Program-made: the position numbers and the translations under genes | DNA from: Desulfatitalea sp. BRH_c12 | Lineage (GTDB): Bacteria > Desulfobacterota > Desulfobacteria > Desulfobacterales > Desulfosarcinaceae | Assembly: GCA_000961655.1 (NCBI GenBank) | Contig: LADR01000017.1 | Coordinates: forward strand, 1 to 64,000 | Length of the DNA stretch: 64,000 nt | Reading direction: 5' to 3' | The notes under the pieces: model-generated | Told to the model about the DNA's origin: nothing | Databases searched by the model: none | Seen by the model: only the letters and a program-made list of their open reading frames with translations | Shown: positions 6,412-56,589 of the stretch, piece after piece | Numbering within the stretch: position 1 is the stretch's first letter | Layout of the letters: each line of letters opens with the position of its first letter

Positions 6412-6930
6412 ATGCATATTGTCATCGATGGCTATAATCTCATCCGCCAATCATCGTATTTCGGTGCGCTGGATCAGCAAGAGCTCCAGGCCGGGCGCGA
6501 TGCGTTGGTCGATGCGCTGGCGGCCTATAAGAGGGTCAAGGGATTTGCCATCACCGTTGTTTTCGATGCGCAATCCGCACCGTTAGGTATGCCTCGTCGC
6601 GATCGCATCAAGGGCATCGATGTGTACTATTCGCGGCAGGGCGAATTGGCTGATGCCGTGATTAAACGCATGGCTGACAGAGAAAAAGATCGGATGACCG
6701 TGGTCAGTTCCGACAATGAGGTGATCCGCTACGCTGCCGCCAAGGGGGCGGGGATTATCAGTGCGGACGAATTTGAAAAAAGGATTCTCATGGCCCGCAT
6801 GATGGATATCAAAGGGGGGGACGAAAGCGAAGCATCGATGGGATGGCAGCCGAGTACCCGGAAAACAGGACCGTCCCGTCGCCTTTCCAAGCGTCAGCGC
6901 AAAATGAAACAAAAGATAGCCAAACTATAG
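6412..6930 (+). CDS. NYN (PIN-like) domain ribonuclease, YacP/Rae1-type
   Basis: 172 residues. It opens with HIVIDGYNLI, carrying the first catalytic-type Asp, and continues with VVFDAQ, a segment IDVYYSRQGELADAVIK, and VVSSDNEVIRYA with another conserved Asp. This is the YacP/NYN pattern; Bacillus Rae1 of this family cleaves mRNA on the ribosome. The C-terminus is very basic (from about 140), consistent with RNA binding. It may be co-transcribed with parAB. No Shine-Dalgarno is evident at the start. Confidence 0.8.
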   Translation: MHIVIDGYNLIRQSSYFGALDQQELQAGRDALVDALAAYKRVKGFAITVVFDAQSAPLGMPRRDRIKGIDVYYSRQGELADAVIKRMADREKDRMTVVSSDNEVIRYAAAKGAGIISADEFEKRILMARMMDIKGGDESEASMGWQPSTRKTGPSRRLSKRQRKMKQKIAKL

Positions 6931-6969: not shown

Positions 6970-7422
6970 ATGGCCATGCCAAAAAAAATTTGTGTGATAG
7001 ATGGGCAAGGTGGCAGCATTGGTAGCGCCATCATCAAGAAAATCAAAGAAACTTTTGGCGAATCGGTCGAGATCGTCGCTTTGGGAACCAACGCCATTGC
7101 CACCGCCCAAATGCTCAAGGCCAAAGCCAACCGAGGTGCTTCGGGTGAAAACGCCATCGTGCAGACGGTGTCCAAAGCAGACATTGTTGCCGGTCCATTG
7201 AGTATCGTGCTGGCGCATGCCATGATGGGTGAAGTGACACCCAAAATAGCAATGGCTGTAGCAGCCTGTCGCGCCGCGAAAATGCTGCTGCCGCTCAATC
7301 AGGAAAACGTCTCGGTGATCGGCGTATCAAGCCTGCCCTTGCCGCACTTGGTGGGCGAGCTTGTCGATAACCATATACGGAAGTATCTTGATGGGCTGGT
7401 TGCAATGGAATTGAAAGTCTAA
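6970..7422 (+). CDS. DUF3842 family protein
   Basis: 150 residues. A Rossmann-like N-terminus KKICVIDGQGGSIGSAII suggests nucleotide binding. The central part repeats ALGTNAIATAQMLKA and ADIVAGPLSIVLAHAMMGE, and the C-terminal half has VSVIGVSSLPLPHLVGELV. I recognise the DUF3842 pattern, common in Firmicutes and Deltaproteobacteria, with no established function that I know. An in-frame ATG two codons downstream is an alternative start. Confidence 0.8.
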   Translation: MAMPKKICVIDGQGGSIGSAIIKKIKETFGESVEIVALGTNAIATAQMLKAKANRGASGENAIVQTVSKADIVAGPLSIVLAHAMMGEVTPKIAMAVAACRAAKMLLPLNQENVSVIGVSSLPLPHLVGELVDNHIRKYLDGLVAMELKV

Positions 7423-7945: not shown

Positions 7946-9670
7946 ATGAAGATCGTTGTCGCCAAGACAGCCGGTTTTTGCATGGGAGTGCGTCGTGCCG
8001 TGGAACTGGCGCTGGATGCGCCTTCCCAACAACAAAAGCCGATATTTACCTATGGCCCGTTGATCCACAATCCGCAGGTGCTGGCAATGTTTGTCGAGCG
8101 GGGAATCACGGTCATGGAGAAAATCCCCCCAAAGGGTTCCGGGACCGTATTGGTACGGGCTCACGGTGTGCCGCCGGAAACCAAGCAGCAACTCAAGCAG
8201 GCTGGCTTTACAGTCATTGACGCCACATGTCCGCGAGTCGTCAAGGTTCAAGCCATCATCAAGCGTTTCGCCCGTAAAGGGTTTGCCGCCATCATTGTCG
8301 GAGATCAGGATCATCCTGAAGTCATCAGCTTGCAAGGGTTTGCCGGCCAAGCGGGCCATGTGGTCGGATCTTTGGAGGCGCTGCAGAATCTTCCAGTCTT
8401 CGATCAGGCGATCGTCGTCGCCCAAACAACCCAGAATGAGCGCTTGTACCAGCAGATAAAAACCTGGGTTGGCGAACATCGGGCGCACTACGAGCTTTTT
8501 GATACAATCTGCGATTCCACTGAAAAACGTCAGGCCGAAGTGCGCAAACTGGCGCATGAAGTGGATGCCGTGGTGGTGGTCGGCGGAAAAAGCAGCGGAA
8601 ACACACGCAGATTGGCGGAGATTGTTTCTGAATCAGAAAAATGCGCCTACCATGTGGAAACCGAAACGGAGTTGGATCTGAAAGCCCTTTCACGGGTGCA
8701 GACTGTTGGCATCACAGCCGGTGCATCTACACCCACATGGATCATCCGGCACGTGGTGCGGGCGATCGAGCAGATGCCCATGCAGACTGGCCTGGGCTGG
8801 CGGTCCCATCTGCTGCGCGTCCAAAGATTGGCCCTTCTGACCAACGTGTATGTGGCACTCGCAGCCGGCTGCCTGAGTTATGCGGTCATGCATTTACAAC
8901 ATTTGCGCCCCTCCTTGCCTGCTCTGTCCGCAGCTATTCTGTATATCATGTCCATGCATATTTTAAATCATCTTACCGGACGCGCCGAAGACAGTTATAA
9001 CGATCCCGACCGCGAACGCTTCTACAGCCGGCATAAACGGCCGTTGATTTTTATGGCTTTGGCTGCCGGTGCGATAGGATTGGTGGCTGCCTACCGGATG
9101 GGCGCTTTGGCTTTTTGGACGTTGCTGGCCATGAGTCTGCTGGGGCTTTCCTATAACTTGCGGCTGATTCCCAGTCGGATGTGGCCATCTTTTCATTTTC
9201 GACGTATTAAGGATTTTCCAGGTTCAAAAACCATATTGATCGCTCTGGCCTGGGGCGTGGTGACGGCTGGTTTGCCGGCCCTTGCCGATGCCGAAGGGCG
9301 ATGGCTGAGCGGCACCCTGGCCGTCGCCTTGGCATCCGCCCTCGCTTTCAGTCGCACTGCATTTTTCGATATTCTCGATATCCAAGGAGATCGCATCGTC
9401 GGCAAGGAGACTATCCCTATCCTGATGGGGCCGGTCCGTGCTTTGAAGTTGTTGAAAGTCACATTGGCAGGCGTTCTGATTTTACTGTGCCTGTCTGCAT
9501 GGACAGGAATCTTTTCTCATTTGGGTTTCCCTTTGATCGTGGTCCCAGCTGCTTTTTGGGCCATCATCGTCGTTCATGAACGCGATCCCATGTTTTCCGG
9601 TGTTCAGCTTGAATTTCTGGTGGAAAGTATCTTCGTTCTGAGTGGTCTGCTGGCTTTCCTCATGGCGTGA
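7946..9670 (+). CDS. ispH: IspH (HMBPP reductase) fused to a UbiA-like membrane prenyltransferase
   Basis: 574 residues, about twice normal IspH length. Residues 1-277 are a complete IspH/LytB: cluster cysteines C12, C95 and C189; histidines H41, H73 and H123; E125 in HPEV; and the SSGNT motif near 216-220. IspH makes IPP and DMAPP in the last MEP-pathway step. Residues 285-574 form a polytopic membrane domain with the second UbiA Asp-rich motif intact (DILDIQGD, 475-482). The first motif is altered: the expected NDxxDxxxD reads NHLTGRAED at 341-349. The fusion would couple C5-precursor synthesis to prenyl transfer at the membrane. The acceptor is unknown, and a quinone or other aromatic acceptor is a guess. 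The frame is open throughout with no sign of a false join. Confidence 0.88.
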   Translation: MKIVVAKTAGFCMGVRRAVELALDAPSQQQKPIFTYGPLIHNPQVLAMFVERGITVMEKIPPKGSGTVLVRAHGVPPETKQQLKQAGFTVIDATCPRVVKVQAIIKRFARKGFAAIIVGDQDHPEVISLQGFAGQAGHVVGSLEALQNLPVFDQAIVVAQTTQNERLYQQIKTWVGEHRAHYELFDTICDSTEKRQAEVRKLAHEVDAVVVVGGKSSGNTRRLAEIVSESEKCAYHVETETELDLKALSRVQTVGITAGASTPTWIIRHVVRAIEQMPMQTGLGWRSHLLRVQRLALLTNVYVALAAGCLSYAVMHLQHLRPSLPALSAAILYIMSMHILNHLTGRAEDSYNDPDRERFYSRHKRPLIFMALAAGAIGLVAAYRMGALAFWTLLAMSLLGLSYNLRLIPSRMWPSFHFRRIKDFPGSKTILIALAWGVVTAGLPALADAEGRWLSGTLAVALASALAFSRTAFFDILDIQGDRIVGKETIPILMGPVRALKLLKVTLAGVLILLCLSAWTGIFSHLGFPLIVVPAAFWAIIVVHERDPMFSGVQLEFLVESIFVLSGLLAFLMA

Positions 9671-9724: not shown

Positions 9725-10015
9725 ATGATGGCACCTATTTCAATTCCCATCGATGGTATATTGGATCTGCATACTTTTGACCCAAGAGAGCTGCCCGACC
9801 TTTTAGAGGATTATCTGGAGGCCTGCAGAGAGAAGAACGTACTGAATGTCCGAATCATCCATGGAAAGGGGTCAGGCATGCAAAAGGCCAGGGTGCGGTC
9901 TTTGCTTTTAAAAAACCCCTTGGTCCGCGAGTTCAAGGACGCGCCTCCGCAGGCCGGCGGCTGGGGGGCAACTGTGGTTGCGTTGATCCCGCTCACCCTT
10001 CCAGAAACAGAATGA
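9725..10015 (+). CDS. Smr-domain protein
   Basis: 96 residues forming a stand-alone Smr domain. The two signature motifs are visible: LDLHTF near residue 13 and IIHGKGSG near 44. Smr domains occur at the C-terminus of MutS2 and as small nucleases acting on DNA or RNA. No MutS2 is adjacent, so a nuclease role in repair or ribosome rescue is only a family-level inference. ATG 9725 is followed by a second in-frame ATG. Confidence 0.85.
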   Translation: MMAPISIPIDGILDLHTFDPRELPDLLEDYLEACREKNVLNVRIIHGKGSGMQKARVRSLLLKNPLVREFKDAPPQAGGWGATVVALIPLTLPETE

Positions 10016-55878: not shown

Positions 55879-56109
55879 CAGCAGCCCCAAACCCGAAGGC
55901 GGTTACCCTGACTCCCATTAGTGCCGTTACCTCCTGCTTGAAAAAAAGGTGCCCCCAGTATATTCTTTGACCACTTTGCCGCGTGTTCCCATAGGGGCGA
56001 TCTTTTGTTCGCATGTTCGCCCGCGTTCGACGCGCGCAATTATAAGCGCAGGCTGAAACGACATCGTCTGCGCTTTGGCATGATCAACCACGGAGAAAGT
56101 AAAGGTAAA

Positions 56110-56589
56110 ATGCGAATCGGCATGGGATATGATGTGCACCGTCTGGTCAGCGGCAGGCCGCTGATTCTGGGTGGCATAACAGTACCTTTTGACAAAGGCT
56201 TGTTAGGCCATTCAGATGCGGATGTGCTGGTGCATTCGGCCTGCGATGCCCTGTTGGGTGCGGCCGGCATGGGCGATATCGGACAGCATTTCCCCGATAC
56301 CGATCCTCAATACAAAGACATTTACAGCATGGAGCTTCTGAAACGCAGCATTCAACGGGTCCGGGAATCTGGCCTGGAATTGTGCAACATGGATGCCACG
56401 CTTTTTGCGCAAGCCCCCAAGATAGCGCCTTATCGCGACGCCATGCGCCAGGCCATCGCCGCGGCAATGCAGGTTTCCGTCGATCGGATCAACATCAAGG
56501 CCACCACTACCGAAGGCCTCGGCCAGGTGGGTGCCGGCGAGGGCATGGCGGCCATGTGTGTCGTGCTGATGCAGTGCCAAACAGCGTAA
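56110..56589 (+). CDS. ispF: 2-C-methyl-D-erythritol 2,4-cyclodiphosphate synthase
   Basis: 159 residues. It starts MRIGMGYDVHRL, with metal ligands in DVH, and shows GHSDADVLVHS and the C-terminal KATTTEGLG. It makes MEcPP in the MEP isoprenoid pathway, whose last step is the IspH domain of the fusion at 7946-9670. The frame is open 35 codons upstream, but the family starts at ATG 56110. Confidence 0.96.
   Translation: MRIGMGYDVHRLVSGRPLILGGITVPFDKGLLGHSDADVLVHSACDALLGAAGMGDIGQHFPDTDPQYKDIYSMELLKRSIQRVRESGLELCNMDATLFAQAPKIAPYRDAMRQAIAAAMQVSVDRINIKATTTEGLGQVGAGEGMAAMCVVLMQCQTA

Follow-up and report, generated by a model that had tools for sequence, protein, structure and literature searches.

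Hybrid proteins joining IspH, the reductase that completes the MEP isoprenoid pathway, to a UbiA-like domain were described by Rao et al. 2015 (PMC4746011), who reported 47 of them, mostly from Desulfobacterales, called the UbiA part PT_UbiA_5, found 'two DXXXD repeats' and noted separate UbiA/MenA proteins in fusion genomes. They put the fusion forward as a source of IPP/DMAPP at the membrane and favoured a prenyltransferase activity; expression of the full-length fusion protein failed. Our full-text literature search on the IspH-UbiA fusion returned, beyond that study, merely a citing mention. In the UbiA family itself, AfUbiA holds Mg2+ and prenyl diphosphate with N68 and D72 of its first motif and D198 and D202 of its second, the third first-motif Asp, D76, making no metal contact; GPP binding is abolished in N68A and D72A and weakened in D198A and D202A, and EcMenA mutated at the equivalent positions loses all or nearly all function (PMC4106721). 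A further precedent is human UBIAD1, a sensor of GGpp through which HMG-CoA reductase (HMGCR) is controlled (PMC9314443).

The window analysed here, a stretch of 64,000 nucleotides from Desulfatitalea sp. BRH_c12, contains an ispH-ubiA fusion gene at 7946..9670 on the + strand, a single frame of 574 codons plus stop with an ATG start and no internal stops, whose product has 574 aa. Residues 1-277 (7946..8776, +) make up the IspH domain, identified by Pfam LYTB (residues 3-274, E 2e-88), by TIGR00216 (281 bits; cut-off 188) and by aligned residues. A short linker, residues 278-285 (8777..8800, +), placed from the domain boundaries, leads into the membrane domain of residues 286-574 (8801..9667, +), where Pfam UbiA PF01040 matches residues 306-543 (E 3.2e-16, 59.8 bits; cut-off 34.2). 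The first-pass annotation had read a complete IspH and a polytopic UbiA-like domain in one frame, and both Pfam families bear this out. The membrane domain has nine hydrophobic segments, and AlphaFold models built from 3-row alignments reached pLDDT values of 57 and 52, with nine long helices in the low-confidence model. A Foldseek search with that model ranked UbiA structures first, at E>=1.9e-3 with none at E<=0.001, and a profile of the membrane domain gave no match against PDB sequences; by its Pfam profile and nine predicted helices together, this half belongs to the UbiA superfamily in fold.

The IspH half retains its three cluster-ligating Cys residues (C12, C95 and C189) and, in the substrate site, H41, H73, H123, E125, T162, S217, N219 and S261; each of these is identical in 140/140 aligned sequences. 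The first-pass annotation had called the fusion the only IspH of the window, with ispF 46 kb away; ispF is indeed found downstream as a YgbB gene at 56005-56589, and the fusion proves to be the only IspH copy of the whole 6.0 Mb, 98% complete genome. As the sole IspH, it is very likely active as an HMBPP reductase that makes IPP/DMAPP. The same annotation asked whether separate ubiA/menA genes exist, and the genome has two UbiA genes besides the fusion. One is mqnP, which matches MqnP models and adjoins an MqnB-like phosphorylase gene and an MqnA/D-like VitK2_biosynth gene. The other (L002, G000:C13) encodes 332 aa with both motifs intact, and lies near an alpha/beta-hydrolase-like gene and a gene for a multi-helix membrane protein. 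A role of the fused domain as menaquinone or 4HB prenyltransferase is unlikely, since mqnP is present separately and the domain matches the named UbiA equivalogs of NCBIfam weakly (best 39 bits; cut-off 269).

Within the class of the window genome (Desulfobacteria by lineage), 141/147 genomes have an IspH match, and by our table reading, in which a few genes are split by contig ends or carry insertions, all but seven of these 141 have the fusion; the seven have bare IspH alone. Fusions also occur in many families of the phylum outside the class. The sampled genomes are partly MAGs, and related sequences were counted individually. Four genomes that are 99-100% complete (G010, G165, G233 and G236) have no detectable IspH, and two others (G068 and G138) have the fusion plus a second, bare IspH. 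Two fusions, L076 and L077 (G029 and G037), have inserts of tens of residues at two sites of the IspH domain, which extend their ORFs to 665 and 648 aa; no other class fusion seen had such inserts.

This recurrence bears on whether the frame is real, since the first-pass annotation had named a sequencing error removing a stop, or decay of the membrane domain, as grounds for rejecting its reading; neither applies. Full-length fusions of the same layout, free of internal stops, are found in most class genomes and in many families outside the class, and over the same 30 close pairs omega is about 0.07-0.26 in the membrane half and 0.08-0.30 in the IspH half. As its omega is like that of the IspH half, the membrane half is not decaying and is kept by purifying selection, which also rules out drift to a dead tail. 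We found no support within the window for an artefact, be it two genes joined in error or a pseudogene tail; the recurrence and the selection exclude that reading, to which we give next to no credence. Among the copies looked at, the only clearly damaged fusion is L084 (G168:C37), whose membrane half is broken by stops or a frame change into frames of 341 aa and 223 aa. The most conserved domain residues in the class include Y403, K428 and W436 (each 81/81), P354 and T489 (80/81), R470 (79/81) and N341 (78/81); the alignment of Y403 and K428 with Y139 and K146 of AfUbiA is not certain.

The first motif, NHLTGRAED (residues 341-349), runs on into SYNDPDR, up to residue 356 (together 8966..9013, +); the second, DILDIQGD (residues 475-482; 9368..9391, +), is intact in sequence and alignment, with D478-IQG-D482 as first annotated. 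The register comes from a profile-profile alignment in which the class's own unfused UbiA proteins (MqnP) served as reference, and which places N341, G345, D349, D478 and D482 at the canonical N, D, D, D and D. The AfUbiA quartet N68/D72/D198/D202 is thus N341, G345, D478 and D482 in the window fusion, and the canonical NDxxDxxxD is broken, N341 being kept and 345 being G. Two of three first-motif Asp residues had been reported as replaced, and the profile alignment puts the replacements at H342 and G345. By this alignment G345 is the important one, because the AfUbiA ligands are N68 and D72, with D76 off the metal; H342 matters less, because MqnP-type UbiA proteins carry R there. No fusion with a readable motif has Asp at 342, the sole D being in the degenerate L074. 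The conserved YNDPxR element that follows lines up with what we take to be the N-x-P-x-R stretch after motif I, by comparison with ChlG. Behind the first motif the sequence has no RPLxSG stretch. Two DXXXD strings can be read in the UbiA half, D478-IQG-D482 and D349-SYN-D353, the latter shifted downstream by one turn relative to the canonical ligand.

The full quartet is intact in 1/81 class fusions, against 21/52 fusions elsewhere in the phylum (Fisher p about 2e-9) and 32/32 of the unfused UbiA proteins that the class itself carries (p about 2e-27), with kinship ignored in both comparisons; the first-motif N+D pair alone is kept in 5/81 class fusions and in 32/32 unfused controls. Motif II is intact in 57/81 class fusions, the window protein included. 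The altered motif is conserved at the level of the class: position 345 is small (G/S/T/A) in 68/81, D349 is present in 68/81 and D353 in 59/81, whereas fusions from outside the class usually have D345 and seldom an acidic residue at 349. Class subclades differ in the ligand that they have lost: most lack the one at 345, A replaces D478 in ten sequences and S replaces D482 in eight. The eight S482 sequences (L041, L111, L118, L121, L122, L127, L128 and L135), probably one clade, all have an acidic residue at 345, as though a single one of the two metal sides had been retained. In families f78 (L066-L070) and f74 (L071-L074) the fused multi-helix domain is kept, the first motif is gone and the second is reduced.

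The surroundings of the gene are also shared. A YacP-like NYN-domain gene (6412..6930, +) and a DUF3842 gene (6970..7422, +) lie upstream of the fusion and an Smr-domain gene (9725..10015, +) lies downstream, and the class repeatedly shows this order, NYN - DUF3842 - ispH-ubiA - Smr; DUF3842 is upstream in 28/38 class loci with sequence to inspect, and Smr is downstream in 11/36. IspH stands alone in at least five genomes, in four of them within this same neighbourhood, ending at the domain boundary beside NYN, DUF3842 and Smr (L079), NYN and DUF3842 (L080), DUF3842 (L081) or Smr (L089); at L078 bare IspH has an Smr-type gene close downstream. Because bare IspH occurs at the same loci, the membrane half is dispensable in some relatives and IspH is not. 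On a tree of the IspH domain, the fused and bare states have to interchange six times, of which well-supported branches force only two. The context of L090 (G130), where bare IspH is followed by prenyl diphosphate synthase-like and DXS-like frames, is unlike that of the other bare copies. When 56 genomes, most of which have bare IspH, were searched with a domain profile, no free copy of the membrane domain was found. Diverged fusions in G178 and G347 matched weakly through their C-terminal halves, and G230 gave one partial match (E=1.6e-5). This absence from bare-IspH genomes suggests that the domain travels with IspH and is not an independent enzyme.

Direct results are the fusion and its wide distribution, the fact that selection retains it, the metal-ligand loss, the lack of free copies and the in-place domain losses; the orientation in the membrane, the absence of transfer, the binding of prenyl diphosphates and the coupling to IspH are inferred. 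With moderate confidence we favour a reading in which IspH is tethered to the membrane and its UbiA-fold half binds or senses prenyl diphosphates but does not carry out canonical transfer. The C-terminal domain would hold the sole IspH at the membrane's cytoplasmic face, in keeping with the membrane placement first proposed, which holds up as likely; as UbiA Asp motifs lie on the cytoplasmic side (PMC4106721), the N-terminal IspH would then be located at the entrance to the prenyl diphosphate pocket. In the class, the canonical first Mg2+ site is lost and the rest of the diphosphate pocket is held under purifying selection. Most likely the domain has given up prenyl transfer of the usual UbiA kind. 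In the membrane it would instead bind prenyl diphosphates with long chains, and such binding could localise IspH or match IspH activity to the isoprenoid pool further down the pathway. We prefer binding or sensing to canonical transfer because ligands are lost only in fused copies and because the pocket is under sustained selection, as the low omega, the invariant Y403, K428 and W436 and the near-invariant N341 attest. Further support comes from the near absence from the class fusions of a quartet of which N68 and D72 are needed for GPP binding in AfUbiA (PMC4106721), from the loss of different ligands in different subclades, from the fused domains of L066-L070 and L071-L074 that persist without a first motif, from the lack of any free copy in the genomes searched, from the cover of menaquinone prenylation by mqnP, and from the UBIAD1-HMGCR precedent (PMC9314443).

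Several of these observations can be read another way. The domain could be an active prenyltransferase whose first metal site has been rebuilt, with N341, D349 and D353 in place of the N/D pair, supplied with prenyl diphosphates downstream of its own IspH and making a putative prenylated membrane product; we regard this as possible, though doubtful. The intact second motif of the window protein and of most class fusions argues both for such an enzyme and against binding or sensing, as do D349 and D353, which could act as replacement metal ligands: D349 and a small residue at 345 are each usual in the class, with the reverse outside, as if the acidic ligand had moved by one helical turn. The purifying selection and the invariant Y403/K428 also speak for it, the strong conservation of the pocket residues is like that of an active site, fusions outside the class with the full quartet may well be active, and Rao et al. 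2015 favoured such activity (PMC4746011). However, the N68/D72 equivalents are essential in the UbiA proteins studied (PMC4106721), 478 or 482 is also lost in subclades, the RPLxSG stretch is missing, the seven class genomes that keep IspH without the domain imply that any product is dispensable there, and free copies of the domain were not found. Transfer to or from a non-standard partner, as raised in the first-pass annotation, is likewise possible; it is not the best-supported reading, given the lost D72 equivalent and the subclades without second-motif ligands. That the UbiA half is a membrane anchor only, its pocket conservation residual, fits the persistence of motif-less fused domains in two other lineages, but the conservation of Y403, K428 and W436 exceeds what an anchor needs and omega equals that of IspH, and we consider a plain anchor improbable.

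Returning to binding or sensing, a bolder form of it would make the domain a class-wide pseudo-prenyltransferase built into IspH, sensing membrane prenyl diphosphates and feeding back on IspH; argued by analogy, this is an unlikely extension. If the feedback were true, it would be a bacterial counterpart of UBIAD1-HMGCR control within one polypeptide, and a new regulatory layout for the MEP pathway. Ligands lost only when fused, strong purifying selection, no free copies and in-place losses together recast the idea of prenyl supply at the membrane as two alternatives that can be tested against each other, a rebuilt enzyme and a sensor.

Compared with known systems, the IspH-RPS1 fusions share with ours an IspH with a C-terminal partner, in anaerobes, but that partner is ribosomal protein S1 and is soluble. 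UBIAD1-HMGCR (PMC9314443) is alike in that a UbiA-fold protein touches a reductase of an isoprenoid pathway, and is an analogy only; it is eukaryotic, involves separate polypeptides and the mevalonate pathway, and works by degradation-based control. With the UbiA prenyltransferases (AfUbiA, ApUbiA, MenA, MqnP, DGGGP synthase and chlorophyll synthase) the window protein shares the Pfam UbiA match, nine helices and the second Asp motif, and it differs from them in G345 for D72, H/N at 342, the lack of RPLxSG and the fusion to IspH. The closest relatives are the hybrids of Rao et al. 2015, in which IspH is likewise N-terminal, the UbiA-like part is C-terminal, a separate UbiA/MenA is found elsewhere in the genome and the two DXXXD strings are present. 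The fusion and the idea of prenyl supply at the membrane were thus already published in 2015; the main text of that paper (PMC4746011) describes no class-wide loss of motif-I Mg2+ ligands, no contrast with unfused paralogues and no in-place losses, and what is new here is this altered-motif pattern of the fusions, in which ligands are lost, unfused UbiA proteins of the same class contrast with the fused domain, and the domain has been lost in place.
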